From Craspedostauros australis (lineage: Eukaryota; Bacillariophyta; Bacillariophyceae; Mastogloiales; Achnanthaceae), in assembly GCA_026770025.1 (NCBI GenBank), contig JAMXDE010000038.1:496001-560000 (forward strand): DNA of 64,000 nt, in the 5' to 3' direction. Within the stretch, counting starts at the first letter, position 1. Every line of letters starts with the position of its first letter. A program made the position numbers and the translations under genes. The notes under the pieces are model-generated. The model was not told the DNA's origin and ran no database searches. It was given only the letters and a program-made list of their open reading frames with translations. Shown one piece after another: positions 3,649-30,251 of the stretch.

Positions 3649-4980
3649 AAAATGAAATGGCTGACCGCACTCTCAGGGCGCGAACAGGAGTGGGAGTACA
3701 AACATCACAACGTATCCACATGTACGCCCATGCTCATACGGTCGCATCTTCCGCAGCGGCAAGACAGCATGGATGCGATCCATATTCAGAACGAATGGCT
3801 CAACTCAACTCCATCGTTGCATATGGCACGATGATCGAAGAATAGAATACATGTTACAATACAGTCATGGAACAATCGTTTGCATCCTGTGCTGTGCTGC
3901 GCCTTGCCAGTTGTGCATTCTCGTACTTCCATGTGCTAGTATAGCATGATATGGTACCTTTGCCCATGACTTCAAGGGAGCATATCCGAAGATGAACCAC
4001 ACAACTTGACTACAGTTTCAACCACTCCGTCCAGACATCCATACGAGTGCACTTGCGTTCTTGTCGTACAACTCGTCGAGTATTCTAAACTTGTCTTGTT
4101 CGAGGCCAGCTCAGCGAGGAAACGTTATGTGCGAACTAAAACGAAGACTCGGTGATGCCACGTTTGGTTACCCAGAACGTCTGTATCTGCAGAAGGGGGC
4201 ATCCTGCGTGTTCGTCTTCAGCACGCAGACGACGGAATAGCTCATCGAATGTAACATATTATAGGAGCTGCACTAGCACATCACAACATAGCATAGTATA
4301 GCATATGAGCATGGTATGGTGTGGATTCGTTGCGCTCTACTCTACTCTACTCTACTCTACCAATACATGACGATTGTGCTAGTGGCAGCGCCGTCGGCAG
4401 GGCACGAGCAGAGATGAATGATCAGAGGATGCATCGTTGGTGCTCCAGTGACGAGTACAGACGCTTGGACTTGATGGCAGCAACGATCGCGAGGGTTGCA
4501 CATGTGTGATGAAGAGAAAGCGGAATACTGGCATGGCACGATGTGGTACAGATGTACGAGTGCGGTACCAACCAAGAGGAGGCTTTGCCATTCGATTGGT
4601 TTGTGCGACACACACCGATTGTGCTGGCGCTCCGATCGACGCAGTTGAGGCCTTGGAGCGTTTTTGTGTGTGGTTCGGATGGAAATTTTCCGACCAGAAC
4701 GGCACAACACAACGTGCCGGCTCCACGACGCGATGGCTCCACGACGCACACCATTCACGACACAAAAATACGGTCCGCGTCACACAATTCACACCACTCG
4801 TCACAAAACACAAAACAAACATCACACACCACACCACACCACACCACACCACACCACACCACACCACACACCACACATCACACATCACAATCCTCCATGC
4901 CATCAAACAGACGATGTGCACACAGGCACTCCAATCACAGGTGTGCCTATAACATATAATACTACTACTTTGATTTGCAG
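3649..4980. other. Low-complexity intergenic stretch
   Basis: No gene is supportable. The stretch holds short microsatellites: a ctcta array around 4336-4360 and a long cacac-type (ccaca)n array at about 4829-4875. Open frames over these arrays are compositional artefacts. Confidence 0.5.
4829..4875. repeat. (CCACA)n microsatellite
   Basis: About nine consecutive copies of a 5-bp unit (caccacacca phase) are visible, followed by imperfect copies to about 4890. It lies just 3' of the transposase frame. Confidence 0.85.
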
Positions 4981-7527
4981 CTACATCTCTGCTGTGTTGG
5001 TATCCTGCTCTGCTTTGCTGTGATGCTCGTCCTTGCCAACGAACATGGCCACTTCGAATGTGTTCATGGTGGGTGCTGCTTTGGCTTTGCTGTTGTTGTT
5101 GCAAGGCTCAATGATGTCGGCTTTGCTCTTGCTGGGTTGCTTCTTTCTCTTCTCGTCTTTCTTCTGTTGCTCAGCCTCCTCGTTGGCTCTGGTTGTCGCA
5201 ACGATTTGCTTCTCCAGCAACGGAATGAGGCTGCTGGTTGTTGGCAGATTCGTTTTCAGGCACTGCAGTCCACTGACAGCCATCACCTTGAGCGCATCAT
5301 CGTACATACCTTTGATGTCGGGCTTGGCGTATTTGAAGTCAGCTGATTTGCCTTTGTTGTCTGTTGCAGTTGGTTTGTTGGTGGTCGCGCGGGTAGCCTC
5401 ATCCTCCTCCAACACGAAGTCCGTGTGAGACACGGTAACGCCGATCTTGTTGCCCTCTTTGTCGAATTCCGTGGACGTTTGTTTCCGCACATTCATGTGC
5501 AGTCCCTTGCGCTCCGTCACAAATTCGTCACCTCCTTTTGCAGCACAAATTGCGTAGGCAATCTGATGGTGGCGAACATACGCGCTAGCCACCTTGTCCA
5601 GCTTGAATTGTTTCCAACAGGTTCCACAAGCATTCCACAATGCCTCAGTGGTAAGCAATCGGCTTCCATGGTGCTCACCTTGATATGCTGACACGTGTTT
5701 TGACATCGCTGGGAATATCGCATCGTCTTTCACATTCGTGATGGGAGAATTTGGTGGTTGCAGTCGTAAGTGCCATCCGCGACTGTCGAACTCCTTGTTG
5801 ATGAATCTAAGTAGCTCCGTGTCTCTGTGTGGCCCTGCGCCATCCATCTGGTACCGAATCACCACGTTCTTTCCGGTTTCGGCCTTGATTTTGCTGGCGA
5901 GCGAATCCAGTGCGGGGAGTTCTTTTTCGCGGAAGAATTTCTTGAGGCTGTACTTCGGCTTGGGCTTAACACGATGACCATCTGTTTCCTTGCTGCCCGT
6001 GATTTCCAGTGGTTGGAAGTACAGTTCACCCTTCTTGCGAGAGATTTTCTCGGGATCAGGAAGGTGCTTGTACTTGGTCGGCGAGACCCAAGTTCGCTTG
6101 TACGTGGTCTTCTGCGCTCGGACCATGCGCCCAACACGTTCGAAGTTCACCTTATACGCCTTTCCTCCTTTCGCAAAACAGTTATTTGTTGGGGCAAATG
6201 CTGTTGATGCAATTGCCATGGTCTTGTCAATGTGACACTTGTGATGCACAGTCTGCTTCACAGGCTTAACTCCCATCTGGGGCACATGTTTCAGATGCAT
6301 GCGAGCGACAATGGAGTAGAACCACTTTTCGTCCATGTGGACAAGGACAACTTGCGTATTCTCAAACAGCTCAGCTGATTCCCAGAACACACAGAAGTCC
6401 TGAGCCCAGATGTCGCGCTTTGCTGTAGTGGTGCCATTGATCAGAGGGAGTATTGTTGTAGAACGGTACTCACTGCCTTCCAATCCCATGACGAATTTGC
6501 GAATACACTTCGGACCAACGACTTGCGGGTTTCCGCTGCCTGCCAGTTTCCATGCAATTCTGTCCCACGAGATTGCGCCATTGCACCGTCGCAACACATC
6601 CTGGAGCTCAAATTGCAGGAAGGGACCACGCTCCAACCACAAATCAGCCAGCGCTTTTGCGGATGCCAGCTCTTCCAGCGAAGCAGAGGCATAGGCAGAA
6701 GCAATTTCGTCGTTCTTGAACTGTTGCTCTGGATGTCGAAGACGTAGTTGTTTCTCAAAGGCTGCGCGCTGCGTGAAGTACTGTCGTTGCTTGATGGGGC
6801 AGGTGAAGATGCTGCTGCCTGCGTCACTTCGCTTCTTGCATTCGAGCGTCTCCGTTTGGAATTTCACAATGTTGCGCCCCACTGTGGTGCGGTTGATACC
6901 CCATGCATGGGCGATCAACTCTGCATGTTCAGGAATCCCACCCAAATTGAAATAGAGAACAGTGTAGTTCCGATTGTCTTCTTTGTCAAGGCGCTTGCTA
7001 GGATTACCAGGCTTAGCAATACTATGCCCTCCATCCTTTCGCAACCATCCTTTTGTTTTCGCGCCTTTCTTCATCTGGTTCGTGAGCTGGGCGATTGCTG
7101 TTGCTTTCTGACGCCGCGAGACCTCGAGAAAAGCGGCGATTTTGGCTTCTTGCGATTCTGTGGTAGTTGGGGATGGTGTGGGGGGCTTAGCCTTGTTGTT
7201 GACACGCGTGGCAGCGACGGAGTGATGCTGGGGAGAAAGGAGGGAAGGCTTAGCAAGGCCTCCAGCAGTGCGAGTCCGTGCGAAGGTAGCGAGGCTGTGT
7301 GGTGTGCACAGATCCTCGCGAACAACATACATTCGGCTCTGCCCCATCACTGGGGTCACCATGACCATTGCCACCTCTCCTGGTGCAAGAGGCCCATTGC
7401 GTTTGACTGTAGCGCCGTCCGTGGTCTGCTTCATTGCAAAATCAACATGACATACGCCCAGGTCATGGACCCTGCCGCTTGAGCTCTGGTGGGATGCCAC
7501 CTTCACACAGTCACCAGCGCGCAGCAT
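4981..7527 (-). mobile_element. Mariner-type DDE transposase (DD38/39D-like)
   Basis: This is a single uninterrupted frame of 848 aa starting at ATG 7527. A helix-turn-helix-like segment (IPEHAELIAHAWGINRTTVG) sits near residues 198-217. The catalytic core shows the three mariner landmarks: VHMDEKWFY (D399), YQMDGAGPH (D562) and PPNSPITNVKDDAIF (D601). The spacing resembles plant-type mariner transposases. The usual SPD before the third acid is SPI here, but the aspartate that aligns with the catalytic third acid (D601) is kept. About 180 N-terminal residues precede the HTH and are not recognised; this is longer than usual for the family. No close terminal inverted repeats were found around the frame, only the distant 48-bp pair at 174 and 9703. 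The intact frame suggests recent activity or recent insertion. Confidence 0.85.
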
Positions 7528-24548: not shown

Positions 24549-25229
24549 ATGCCGCGACAATCCGGATTGGCCGACAGAGAACCATGCCCGTGGCGCATCG
24601 TGGATGATGTGGGCGGCGCGTTCTGCATGGGCAACATCGGCGGCGGCATCTGGCACTCCATCAAGGGCGCCCGCTTGGCCCCCAGCGGCGCGCGGCTCAG
24701 CGGTTCCCTGAGCGCCGTCCAGGCCCGCGCCCCCGTGCTGGGCGGACAGTTCGCCGTCTGGGGCGGCCTCTTCGCGTGCTGCGATTGCTCGTTGACGGCC
24801 ATCCGGCAGAAGGAGGATCCGTGGAACTCCATCGTGAGCGGCGCCGCGACGGGCGGCATTCTGGCGGGTCGCGCGGGTCCTCGCGCCATGGCCAGCGCGG
24901 CCGTCGTGGGCGGCGTGCTGCTGGCGTTGATCGAAGGCATGGGCATCATGATGACGCGCATGATGGCGCCGCCGTCGGCCGATGATATGCTGGCGTCGCA
25001 GCGGATGGATCCGACGGCGCCGCCCACGGCCGGTGGGTTGTTTCCGTCGTCCGGGGGTGGTGCTCGCGGGTTGCCGCCACCACCGTCGTCGCCACCGCCA
25101 TCGTCGTCGGGTGGATTTGATCCGTACGCGACGGAGACCACATTCTCCACGGAAGGATCTTCGTCGAGCGCATCGTCGCCGCAGCAGCAGTCGGGATCGT
25201 CGTGGTGGCCATTTGGATCAAGTTCGTAG
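24549..25229 (+). CDS. TIM17: Mitochondrial inner-membrane translocase subunit Tim17
   Basis: Tim17 forms part of the TIM23 presequence translocase. The single-exon 226-aa protein opens [20 protein letters not shown], the invariant Tim17 start with the conserved acidic residues. The family core continues through [30 protein letters not shown]-like [11 protein letters not shown] and [18 protein letters not shown], with four predicted membrane spans in residues 17-140. The C-terminal 80 residues are a low-complexity Pro/Ser/Gly tail, somewhat longer than in yeast. Two cysteines lie in the expected intermembrane-space positions. Confidence 0.95.
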
Positions 25230-25454
25230 ATGTATGGTATAATAATTGGTTGTACAATACAATACAATACAATATACTCATATAATAGAACTATGGAACT
25301 TTTGAACGAAAGATATAATAGGATGGGATGTGCAGATATGATACACATCAGTGCTGTGAAGTATGGCGCTCTGCGCTTGTGGATGGAGCGTCCCTGCCAC
25401 ACATGCTAGTACGATTCGAGTACATTGCTTGGCATAGGTAGCGCGTGTATGGGA

Positions 25455-25460
25455 AAGGAA
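25455..25460. repeat. Target-site duplication, left, of foldback element
   Basis: AAGGAA directly abuts the left terminus; the same 6 bp (7 bp if the terminal A is counted) abut the right terminus at 27257-27262. Confidence 0.75.
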
Positions 25461-27256
25461 TCGAGCAAATTCACTAACCAGGTCGTTTTTGAGGCCAAAG
25501 TTCACTAACCAGGTCGTTTTGGTGCCTGGCACGATGATTGGATCAATGAAATGGCCGGCGTATCACTGCGACAGACTCGAAAATAATAATTTAGCCACGA
25601 AGTCGACACATCAACCATTTCCCTGTTGGACAGCGTAGAGTACTCTAGTTCATGATGCTGTTGATGAATCCTGTTGAGCAGAGGGTCGGACCTGCTATAT
25701 TGCATACTGACATCAGCCATTGGCATGTCCCTACCTTGAACATTCTACATCCAACTGGAAGGAGATTCAGATCACATGTAGTCAGTTCCTGTGATACCAT
25801 TCGGTCGCAGTGTGTATTGTGTTGGTTCTATGTGCATGCAAAAGGTCAAGCATACTTGATTCTACCAACCGCATCACTCCAAGCACACTCCAAAGGGTAC
25901 GGCCACGAAGTTTGAGGTCTCTAATCCGTCTGGAAGGTACTCATATCGATGGATCTGGATATCATGTGATCCTGTGTGTGGCAGTACTGTGAGCTACGCA
26001 TCAAACTGTACAGTAACTCGACCATTTGTGCATGTAAAATGTCAATTGCGATCCAATCCAACACTACCACCACTCCAAGCACACTCCAAAGGGTACGGCT
26101 ATGGAATTTGAAGTCTAGACTCTGGTTGGAAAGGATCGAAATCTACGGATGCAGATATCAAATGGAAATGACTGGCGCCGTTCATCTGCGCGCATGCCAA
26201 TACCCCTTTCTGATGGATCCAAGACCTCAAACTCCATAGCCGTACTCTTTGGAGTGTGCTTGGAGTGGTGGTAGTGTTGGATTGGATCGAAACTGACATT
26301 TTATATGCACAGATGGTCGAGTTACTGTGCAGTTTGATGCGTAGCTCACAGTACCGCCCTCACAGCATCACATGACATCCTGATCTGTAGATTTCGATCC
26401 TTTCCACATAGATATATCACTTCGACCTCCATATCCGTATCTTTTGGAGGGGGTTTGGAGTCATCGAAGTGTTGGATTGGAATATGATTGACTTTTTGTA
26501 TGCACACATTCTCAGAACGCTGTACAGCGCGATACGCACCGTTCAGTACTGCTTGGTATCAGCATCTGTAGAATTGGATCCCTTCTAAACGGATCTAGGA
26601 CTTCAAACTCGGCGACCGTACTCTTTGGGGTGCGCTTGGAGTAGTCCAGCTGGTTGGATATCTGAAAATGGCCTGTGCAATACATCGATATGCATAATAC
26701 TGCACAAGGCGATGCATACCGTGCAGTCTCGTCTGACGCAGTACTGCGTGGTATCAGCATCCGTAGATTTCGATAACTTCCAGACGGCTCTAACACTACA
26801 GACTCCATGGCCGTACTCTTGGGAGTGTGCTTGGAGTGGTGCCGTTGGTATCATCAAATATGCTTGACCTTTTGTATGCACAGCACACACAGTGACTGAA
26901 CGGTATCGCAGGATTGGACTACATGTAATCTGAAACTCTTCGCAGTTGGGTCTGGACCATCCCAAAGTAGGTACATGCCAATGGCTGATGTCAGTATGCA
27001 ATATAGTTGGTTGAACCCTCTACTCGTATTCCACAGAACAGGATTCATCACCAGCATTATAAACTTGTCTCGTCTACTCTACTCAACTCTACTGGGAAAC
27101 GGTTGACATGTGTATTTCGCGGCTAAATTAATATTTTCGTCATTGTCGCAAGGACGCGCCTGTCAACAGTCCGGCCATTGTGATTGGTCAGGCACCAAAA
27201 CGACCTGGTTAGTGAACTTTGGCCCCAAAAACGACCTGGTTAGTGAATTTGCTCGA
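25461..27256. mobile_element. 1.8-kb foldback (long inverted repeat) element
   Basis: The ends are near-perfect inverted repeats: TCGAGCAAATTCACTAACCA at 25461 is mirrored at 27237-27256. Each end holds two direct copies of TTCACTAACCAGGTCGTTTT. Homology between the arms continues inward for hundreds of bases (for example the shared CATCAGCCATTGGCATGT, plus at about 25709 and minus at about 26975). Inside are units of about 185-196 bp marked by CACACTCCAAAGGGTACGGC: two on the plus strand (from 25876 and 26072) and four inverted (near 26233, 26428, 26612 and 26803). The innermost pair, 26049-26105 and 26233-26289, is almost perfectly complementary and leaves a 127-nt loop. AAGGAA flanks both sides (25455-25460 and 27257-27262), a target-site duplication. 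No coding frame is credible. Confidence 0.88.
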
Positions 27257-28670
27257 AAGGAATCTCATTGTGATGGCGGTCCGCAGTGTCAGACTGCCGA
27301 TCAATGGCGTATCACAGAATGGTGCTCTTGGGTTTGCAGAATTCTCCAGTCTGCGGATCGAGAGATCCAATCCATCCATCCGTCCGTTGCACAGTGGAAC
27401 ACTAATCCGATCCCACCAACAACTTGTGAGATCTTCGAGCTCTTCACCGACACGCATAGAGAGTGCCCTGCTTGAAGATCCTCCCTGGCACACTGCCATA
27501 CGAATACTGAGCATTAAGTGCACATCACTCGTCTGTATCCTGTGACGATGATACTCGCCATCTGTCTGTACGAGACCTGAATGTGAAGGTTCGTCGCATC
27601 CAAACGAACGAACTCGTGATCAGCTCCTGCGTGGATCGAAGCAGTGCGTTTGATGGGTGGCAGTGAGCGTTGGTTGCGTTTGATGTTGCTTGCGTGATAC
27701 GTTTGATGTTGGTTGGGACTGCGAGAAGATCCATGTTTGCAAGTATGGTGATTAATTGTGGAGTCGAGTGGGGTGGAGTGGAGTGGAGTGGAGTGCGGTA
27801 CATACTCTGCGATAGTTGCGAGTGTGGAGAGTGATGCAATGCAGTCTCCTGTGATCTACTCTGAGCGTGTTAGTATGGTTGAATGACGATGGTGGTGGCG
27901 ACCACGAACGTGGAGACGTGACACGAGCACGATTTTGTGAGGCGAAATTGTGTCACAATCCATGGTTAGGAGGCTTATGGAGTTTAAATTGGGTAATTAA
28001 GAAGTCGTGGAATGATAGAAGCATTGCATGTCTGCGTCGCGCGTGTTCCGAAGGCTCTTAAATGGAGGGCTTCTGTGAATGGCGCAGCTGCAGGGACCAC
28101 GCACGAAGCTGCCATTACCGCGTGGTAGCACGGGAAGTGCAAGTAGCGCACATCAAGTACGAAAGACGACGAGAGACGGAAGTCGAAGCCGAACACCAAA
28201 AACAAACAAAACAAGGGCGGAAGAACTCCAACGACAACGGCAACGAAGATCACAACGAGGACTTCAACGATAACCTTGTTACTGTGCTTTGCCTTGTTTC
28301 AACGCCCACATTCAAAACTACGATCACTTTCTCCACCACTCTCCGCATTTTGCATTGTTTGGCCTGTTTTGTTTGCTTGTGTGGCTGGTTTGTTTGCTTG
28401 TCGACAAACACAATCACAACCACAATCAGAGTGAGCAACCATTGTTGTCATCACCATCATACCTTCATCATCACCATCATCACTATCATCACCTTCAACG
28501 TTGTAACACACAAGCAACACACAACGCACCAAGTGTTGTGAAACATCATCCATAACCCATAACCGTCGAGATCCAAGAGAGGGGAGAGCAGCGCATTGAA
28601 GCGAAGATCTCAGACTTGCCGCCCACATTCACTCAGCTGAGCATCCTCAACAGATACAGTAGATACAACA
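27257..28670. other. Gene-free stretch
   Basis: No supportable gene. It holds gtgga-type simple repeats near 27770-27795 and a catcaccat-type tract near 28447-28495. It includes the probable promoter and leader of the next gene. Confidence 0.45.
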
Positions 28671-30251
28671 ATGAGACTCCTGGGCAAACAAGCATCCCAA
28701 TCCGCAAGCAGCCGCTCGCTGATGACGGACACGCAGTCCAGCTCGCGCAGCCTGATGGGCGTGATGCGTCCGCGCCGCAAGCCCCTGCGCTCCACGTCCG
28801 TTCCTTCTCAGGATCGCTTGATCGAGCTGGAGACGCAGGTCGGCAAGCAGACGGAGGTCATCGACGGCCTGCTCGACGAGATCCGCATCCGCGATGATGA
28901 CATTGCAGCGCAGCGCGAGGAGAACCAGCGCTGCCAGATGGCGCATGAGCAGCTGCAGCAGAACCACGCGACGCTGCAGACGCATTACCAGAGCCTGCGC
29001 ACGTGGAGCGTGTCCGTCAACGAAACCTTTCAGACGGAGGCGTCCAAGCTCTGCACGCAGTACATGGAGCTGCAGACGATGTACAACGAGCTGCTGGCGG
29101 ACCACACGCAGTTGCTGCAGCAGAAGGAGCAGCAGCACCACCAGTCTCCGCAGCAGCAGAGGAAGCAACACAAGCCACATCAGCAGAAACGAAGCACAAA
29201 GAAGAAAAAGAAGAAGGCTTCAGCTGATGGCTTCCTGGGATCCTTCCTCTCCAAGAACCAGCAGATGGCAGAGTCCAACGCCAAGAACTTCAGCAGCAGC
29301 AGCTCCATCGGCTCCGCCACGGCCACCACCATGCACTCCACGGCCTTCCTGCCGCCCAACAACAACTCCGAGGTCGATTCCAACGACATCCTCAAGGCCT
29401 TCTTCACTCCTGAGCAGATCGCCGAGTCCTCCAACCTGGCCAGCATGGCGGAGAGCATCGCGGAGGGCAGCGGTTCCATCGACTACGCCACGGACGACGG
29501 TGTGGACGACGACCTTGACAATGACATTGACAACGACATTGACAATGACCTTGACAACGACCTTGACAACGGCAACGACTTTGGCACCGGTGCAGGCGCC
29601 AACCGCTCCAGCACGGCACCCACCAACACCTCCGTCTGCTCCGGCATCACGCTGCAGTCCGACGCGCCCTCCAAGCACACCGTCTCCATGCAGACCAAGA
29701 GCCCCCGATTGCCACCGCTGGCGTCATCGCCCACGGAGACGCCCGTCAGCAGCGACAGCGACAGCGAAGCCTCCAGGTCTTACACCCTGCGCGACACCTC
29801 CCAGGATGAGGGCTTCGACACGGCGCATCGCAAGACATACACTCCCACCTCCTCCTCGTCCGACGACAGCTCCGGCAACTCCTTCTTCTCCGACAACCAC
29901 CGGGAAGACGTATCGCAGAGAGACCGCCTCACGCCGCAGCCGGATCCGGAAGACAAGCCCAAGAAGCTGCGATCCAACCTCTCCAACCGCAACCTCTTGC
30001 CCACCAGCACGCACAGCCTGGGCCGCAAGAGCCGCAGCAACAGCACGACCGATCACACGCCATCCACATCCAAGCTCAACAGTCTCAGATCGCGCCGCCT
30101 GCAGAAGGAGCAGAGTCTCACGTCCCTCTTTGGACAGATATCATCATCGCATGGCCGCGAGACCAACGAACTGCTCTCGCCGCAGACCGTGCCGGGCGTT
30201 CTGCCCTCCATGACCAAGAAGGCCATCATCGAAGAGTCGTTGCCATTGTAA
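28671..30251 (+). CDS. Unrecognised coiled-coil, low-complexity protein
   Basis: This is a single-exon 526-aa protein that starts MRLLGKQASQSASSRSLMTD. Residues about 45-160 form a strong coiled coil (RLIELETQVGKQTEVIDGLL, then Gln-rich heptads). A basic stretch (RSTKKKKKKASADGFLGSFL) follows. The remainder is disordered and Ser/Thr-rich, with an acidic run of repeated D-N-D-I/L units near residues 279-302 encoded by a 12-bp gacattgacaac-type repeat. Codon use is GC-rich and consistent along the frame, which supports it as coding. The opposite and +2 frames are also open because of composition. A nuclear or cytoskeletal scaffold is possible, but nothing identifies it. Confidence 0.75.
   Translation: MRLLGKQASQSASSRSLMTDTQSSSRSLMGVMRPRRKPLRSTSVPSQDRLIELETQVGKQTEVIDGLLDEIRIRDDDIAAQREENQRCQMAHEQLQQNHATLQTHYQSLRTWSVSVNETFQTEASKLCTQYMELQTMYNELLADHTQLLQQKEQQHHQSPQQQRKQHKPHQQKRSTKKKKKKASADGFLGSFLSKNQQMAESNAKNFSSSSSIGSATATTMHSTAFLPPNNNSEVDSNDILKAFFTPEQIAESSNLASMAESIAEGSGSIDYATDDGVDDDLDNDIDNDIDNDLDNDLDNGNDFGTGAGANRSSTAPTNTSVCSGITLQSDAPSKHTVSMQTKSPRLPPLASSPTETPVSSDSDSEASRSYTLRDTSQDEGFDTAHRKTYTPTSSSSDDSSGNSFFSDNHREDVSQRDRLTPQPDPEDKPKKLRSNLSNRNLLPTSTHSLGRKSRSNSTTDHTPSTSKLNSLRSRRLQKEQSLTSLFGQISSSHGRETNELLSPQTVPGVLPSMTKKAIIEESLPL

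Follow-up and report, generated by a model that had tools for sequence, protein, structure and literature searches.

Mutator-like elements (MULEs) are characterized by a MULE-type DDE transposase and by target-site duplications of 8-11 bp; long terminal inverted repeats (TIRs) are common among them but not universal. Foldback transposons that contain internal tandem units have been described before, in some cases (e.g., Tetris) without a transposase source. Among described systems, Tetris and Tm1 are the nearest in architecture to the element analyzed here. Tetris of Drosophila virilis, which was compared with our element by its architecture, is reported as a foldback element with 8-10 bp duplications and with TIRs containing ~220-bp tandem repeats in variable number (PMC4079207). 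Tm1 of root-knot nematodes is likewise similar in its composite foldback-like TIRs, its 8-10 bp duplications, and the presence of non-autonomous copies together with a MULE transposase copy, as far as its published description goes (PMC3169594). Plant MULEs with tandem TIRs are also on record (PMC3310237). No literature joining the terms diatom, Mutator-like, and foldback was found in a search that left most subscription journals outside, which is no proof of absence.

The foldback element studied here was found in a 64,000-nucleotide stretch of a diatom genome (the window, G000:C36:496001-560000), and the whole assembly (74.8 Mb, 90 contigs) was searched for its relatives. The element is very probably a non-autonomous MULE derivative that would be mobilized by a transposase of one MULE family, herein referred to as family A, and at least one array has probably been exchanged between this family and a second one, family B.

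The foldback element and its copies

The element is located between two open reading frames: a Tim17-family ORF ending at position 25229 and an ORF beginning at position 28671, for which no Pfam match above the cut-off was found. In the assembly, a domain search yielded 61 matches to the light-harvesting domain PF00504, which indicate that the host is photosynthetic. One of these proteins is most similar to four LHCI chains of a single entry and next to a fucoxanthin-chlorophyll protein; on this evidence the host is likely a chlorophyll-c alga, perhaps a diatom.

A sequence-only reading of this DNA had proposed a foldback over nearly all of the interval, paired ends with doubled 20-bp motifs, and tandem units of about 190 bp, and all three are borne out (Table 1). 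The element begins and ends with GAGCAAA...TTTGCTC. The outer 68 nt of its inverted arms are 99% complementary and a central 137-nt pair is 93% complementary; the remaining listed arm pairs reach 71-87%, and the short end motifs 96%. The 20-nt terminal motif occurs twice at each end, with a spacing of 31 nt. The unit profile has six matches in the entire window, every one inside the foldback element, and these units of ~160-195 bp are arranged as two in minus orientation inverted to four in plus orientation. The 6-bp target duplication AAGGAA of the same reading had to be corrected: the true repeat is the 10-bp GAAAGGAATC, of which AAGGAA is merely the core.

Table 1. Parts of the foldback element, in window positions.
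Feature	Positions	Strand	Remarks
Complete non-autonomous foldback element, 1,792 bp	25463..27254	.	Ends set by comparing 25 delimited copies
Target-site duplication, left, GAAAGGAATC	25453..25462	+	10 bp; boundary set by other copies
Target-site duplication, right, GAAAGGAATC	27255..27264	+	10 bp; boundary set by other copies
Terminal arm, left (outer ~66-68 bp a near-perfect inverted repeat, diverged inward)	25463..25763	+	
Terminal arm, right	26933..27254	-	
Terminal motif TTCACTAACCAGGTCGTTTT, copy 1	25470..25489	+	
Terminal motif, copy 2, offset 31 bp from copy 1	25501..25520	+	
Terminal motif, inner copy at right end	27197..27216	-	
Terminal motif, outer copy at right end	27228..27247	-	
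Unit 1, 195-bp type	25764..25936	-	Profile match 112.3 bits
Unit 2, 195-bp type	25942..26129	-	Profile match 168.0 bits
Spacer where the inverted array turns	26130..26205	.	Separates units 2 and 3
Unit 3, 195-bp type	26206..26395	+	Profile match 182.2 bits
Unit 4, 195-bp type	26402..26577	+	Profile match 121.2 bits
Unit 5, 195-bp type	26582..26771	+	Profile match 120.6 bits
Unit 6, 195-bp type	26777..26932	+	Profile match 91.2 bits

The genome search for further copies that had been suggested did not leave the element as a single copy. The terminus pattern GAGCAAATTCACTAACCAGGTC, with at most 3 mismatches, matched 80 places in the genome, and the reversed pattern, used as a control, matched 0. 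A full-length copy on C34 is 98.7% identical to the window element over 1,793 aligned columns; its left end has three terminal motifs versus two in the window element. Copies on C1, C2, C19, and C6 are 90-95% identical, and others can be aligned piecewise. In total, 25 elements were delimited, with GAGC ends or the variants GAGG, GAGA, CAGC, and TAGG. Exact target duplications were found at 16 of these elements (eleven of 10 bp and five of 9 bp), and near-exact ones, off by one mismatch or displaced by one base, at two further elements. No duplication was found at 7 of the 25; of these seven, four are palindromic, nearly identical to each other, and have common flanks. With left and right flanks taken from different elements and the same no-shift rule applied, the frequency was 1/600. 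The 18 exact and near-exact duplications have an A+T content of 75%; for eight elements, the 200-bp flanks contain 53% A+T, and the window as a whole contains 47%. Multiple copies, exact ends, target duplications, and a variable number of units support the mobile unit that had been proposed.

No empty site for the window element was found in the assembly, since a search with the joined flanks matched only the two flanks in the window. This absence would fit a local palindrome without mobility or an artefact of the assembly. Such an origin is nevertheless scarcely conceivable for an element that has a 98.7% identical full-length copy on C34 and 80 dispersed termini and is flanked by a perfect 10-bp duplication. 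Moreover, the two arms have ~76% identity (~24% different) across their outer 500 bp and hence are not one sequence assembled twice.

Two groups of copies were considered as larger elements and rejected, because their similarity passes the ends into common flanks. In the first group (L018-L021 and L024), the palindrome runs ~230 bp past the GAGC ends (e.g., L020:747-2461), and the arms of L019-L021 are ~760 bp long and 98-99.9% identical. These copies are probably nested in another repeat. Members of the second group (L017, L022, L023, L025, L027, and L049-L052) have one recognizable end and at most ~3.4 kb in common including the flanks; they look as if another repeat carried them. L024 was additionally rejected as an autonomous copy, its extra length containing a copia-type reverse transcriptase (RVT_2). 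This copia-type retrotransposon lies within the foldback copy at L024:939-8127, with an RVT_2 match in one of the two pieces searched.

Transposase-bearing relatives and classification

The MULE domain PF10551 was found at nine places in the genome. One of these is an 8,015-bp relative on C5, which has ends of the window type and a 10-bp duplication AACATTTTTT. Its open 643-aa ORF (L038:6900-8831) matches PF10551 (MULE, E 4e-10) and PF00872 (Transposase_mut, E 6.4e-7), both above the cut-offs, and a SWIM match is just under its cut-off. The left 598 bp of the window element are collinear with C5 at 81.8% identity, and the ends of C5 form an inverted repeat of 159 bp at 80%. The C5 array consists of 25 units, 14 minus and 11 plus, partial units included; in a transposase-bearing element, the inverted array is located between the gene and one end. 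A further place, on C12, encodes a protein 95% identical to that of C5 with one stop in the domain frame; no unit matches were found there.

The seven other places constitute family B, in which the left 1,025 bp (the end and the start of the gene) are 92.5-94.8% identical to L044. Open 644-aa ORFs were found at four of the seven, with mutual identity of 96-99%, dN of ~0.005-0.019, dS of ~0.036-0.108, and, calculated from the printed values, dN/dS of ~0.13-0.18. In an alignment assessed by eye, the residues taken to be the D, D, and E of the transposase are kept, with one of five ORFs departing at the third; among the four open family B ORFs, the presumed third acidic residue is altered in one. 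Exact duplications of 9 and 10 bp were found at two of the three transposase-bearing B elements checked, and the inverted ends of L047 extend over ~350 bp at 90%. The end pattern of family B has 75 matches in the genome, at least two of them at places that are also among the 80 window-type termini. Ten of 25 end pairs chosen by eye measure 2,268-2,274 bp (e.g., G000:C13:504393-506664, C16:1384865-1387133, and C24:77561-79833); these end-pair lengths alone suggest the spread of a compact family B derivative. One B element of 11,253 bp (G000:C39:587575-598827) combines an open ORF for the transposase with a perfect 10-bp duplication and an inverted array of ~7.7 kb.

Since an open MULE transposase gene was found in a relative with window-type ends, the window copy is considered a non-autonomous Mutator-like foldback element. 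Membership in the MULE superfamily is indicated by the transposase domains of C5, the 9-10 bp duplications, and the long terminal inverted repeats, and membership in the foldback (FB-like) class by the long inverted arms with a variable number of tandem units. The N-terminal FLYWCH finger that marks Phantom-type elements and the PHD finger that marks Rehavkus both had no match in the C5 protein up to E 1. The earlier statement that the element could not be assigned to a named family holds at the level of the family, which was matched to none, but not at that of the superfamily, which is Mutator-like and has a transposase-bearing relative in this very genome. The unusual feature of this foldback-type MULE is the array common to two families.

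Under the proposed mechanism, a family-A transposase like that of C5 would act on the terminal sequence, most likely on the doubled 20-bp motif, and the elements would move by cut-and-paste with insertion at AT-rich sites. The arrays would enlarge and homogenize through unequal exchange, and at least one exchange of the array between families A and B would have followed the divergence of their transposases. The window lineage would have lost the transposase gene and retained a short, frozen array. Among the observations that count against this explanation, the right arm of the window element matches the right end of C5 over only 139 bp, seven of the 25 delimited elements have no duplication, no empty site was found in the assembly, and only one of the nine MULE matches is an open family-A transposase. 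Given this single open gene, the true partner may be missing from the assembly.

A long hairpin RNA from the element, envisaged in the sequence-only reading, is plausible according to the folding model. The RNA fold of the element is predicted at -1039 kcal/mol versus -535 +/- 11 for 12 dinucleotide shuffles, and mirrored positions account for 369 of the 712 predicted pairs. This strong predicted fold and the two genomic places with Piwi-domain matches would agree with an element whose chief role is to supply long hairpin RNA for small-RNA silencing of the MULE families; a precedent is Mu killer of maize, for which silencing of MuDR through a hairpin has been proposed (PMC3440606). However, we regard this role as very improbable, since the units and arms of the window element are ~65-82% identical to C5 and ~66-76% to the B element L047, so that small RNAs would be poor matches to both. 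The ~76% identity of the arms across their outer 500 bp likewise limits the idea. Furthermore, copies L019-L021, with their ~760-bp arms of 98-99.9% identity, would be better sources.

The 195-bp arrays of families A and B

Units were found at 35 of the 38 loci searched, many of which are copies of each other and hence not independent events; the minus-then-plus order fits all 35. Both unit directions occur at 33 loci, the one-sided ones being L057 and L044 (cut by the stretch end). Array size ranges between a few and more than 20 units, with a single direction change wherever both directions occur. Within an array, the units are on average 83-94% identical at the six loci that have both a transposase and an array, compared with 65% in the window. 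Window-type elements have six diverged units that are fixed by position; those of the window match the units at the corresponding positions of other copies, with identities of up to 100% to C34. At L054-L056, which have no transposase match, short arrays of 3-5 near-full units are 83-88% alike internally; thus, short arrays are not always diverged, and homogeneity does not simply follow length. Within the C5 array (L038:1545-4149), the first half fits a 391-bp period with 91% matches versus 88% for 196 bp, a hint of a two-unit higher-order repeat that is not seen in the second half, where the values are 86% and 88%. A transposase-binding site in the unit, considered after a visual ACCAGGT...TTT match, was rejected: for nine motif-unit pairs, shuffles equalled the score in 174-998 of 1,000 cases. 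The terminal motif in the units is therefore not above shuffled expectation, and a binding role for the units is unsupported.

The transposases of C5 and family B are 64% identical in protein, and the genes 68% in DNA. Identity at fourfold sites is 42-44% (random, 25%), corresponding to about one change per site by a hand calculation (Jukes-Cantor). Five pieces of C5 were searched against four B elements, with the best match per pair taken at E 1e-5. The C5 array matched the four elements at 81-85% identity across 1.4-3.4 kb, and both C5 ends and the interval between array and gene had no match in them at this threshold. Over their left 350 bp, C5 and L047 have a global identity of 0.70, no better than the 0.74 of the shuffled control, values inflated by the method.

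Among 191 unit columns, 49 are variable within C5 and 97 within B. No fixed differences between C5 and the pooled B units were found in these columns at three thresholds; compared with single B loci, there are 5 for L044, 1 for L047, and 0 for L043, L045, and L046. In 41 of 42 jointly variable columns, two alleles are common to C5 and B. Window units evolve under a different regime, so an array comparison against them is not clean. C5 was also profiled in 60-base steps at element positions 1-900 and 4561-5220. Its first 360 bases are like the window family and unlike B, and the array from ~481 is nearer B; at ~4921-5100, C5 is again nearer the window family, and farther on it resembles neither. 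At both array edges, C5 passes from sequence like that of family A to sequence like that of B within ~60-180 bases. The outermost partial units of C5 are 70-73% identical to its own interior and 80-82% to the first unit of the window element; for L044 and L046, the outermost units on the left side have 89-90% identity to B interiors.

From these comparisons we infer that ectopic recombination or conversion has transferred an array between families A and B at least once. An intermixed placement of the C5 and B units was also considered, as the FastTree order looked mixed, but was not retained, because with a second tree the AU test did not reject one C5 clade (p 0.546). Repeated mixing is therefore not claimed, and one transfer suffices. 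Strong selection on the unit, e.g., as a binding site or chromatin signal, could also keep the A and B units alike, in line with the columns conserved in all three unit groups, the diverged window type included, and with the single C5 clade allowed by the AU test. Selection seems rather unlikely as the explanation, however, because so many columns vary within C5 and within B and yet none is fixed between C5 and the pooled B units, with nearly all jointly variable columns having alleles in common. In addition, window-type copies have spread although their units are only ~65% alike, and C5 switches within ~60-180 bases at the array edges. Exchange is preferred: on balance, the inverted 195-bp array is probably an exchangeable satellite cassette passed between long-diverged MULE families, which would make the transposon a mosaic whose array has a separate history.

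Comparison with described systems

One assembly offers a series from elements that encode a transposase and have long, internally homogeneous inverted arrays to short non-coding derivatives with frozen arrays. With this series, the growth of satellite-like arrays, the maintenance of their homogeneity, and their passage between transposon families can be tested directly.

MULE-Diatoms and Rehavkus were compared by their survey description (PMC6446971). According to the survey entries, MULE-Diatoms share stramenopile hosts, a single ORF, and a SWIM finger (under its cut-off here); in contrast, their TIRs are 123-124 bp and their duplication is given as 'No TSD and not indicated', whereas duplications are clear here. 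The Rehavkus entry is similar in its 9-bp duplication and a minisatellite listed 'in Cterm' and differs in the PHD finger, which has no match here. Galileo of Drosophila mojavensis is reported to have long TIRs, ~210-bp tandem repeats in one subfamily, and chimeric copies attributed to exchange between subfamilies (PMC3573991). Unlike our elements, it is assigned there to the P superfamily with 7-bp duplications, and the exchange described is among subfamilies of one transposon, whereas here it concerns families with 64% identical transposases.

Tm1 differs, by its description, in an internal motif of ~14 bp versus the ~195-bp units found here and in a transposase of the Phantom type, a class marked by the FLYWCH finger that has no match here (PMC3169594). 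For Tetris, long-array repeats are reported to be more similar to each other than repeats inside complete elements, a likeness to our elements in which only within-element arrays were compared. In contrast, no transposase copy is given for Tetris in that account (PMC4079207), whereas here a transposase-bearing element is known, and the inverted array lies between its gene and one end and is common to two families.
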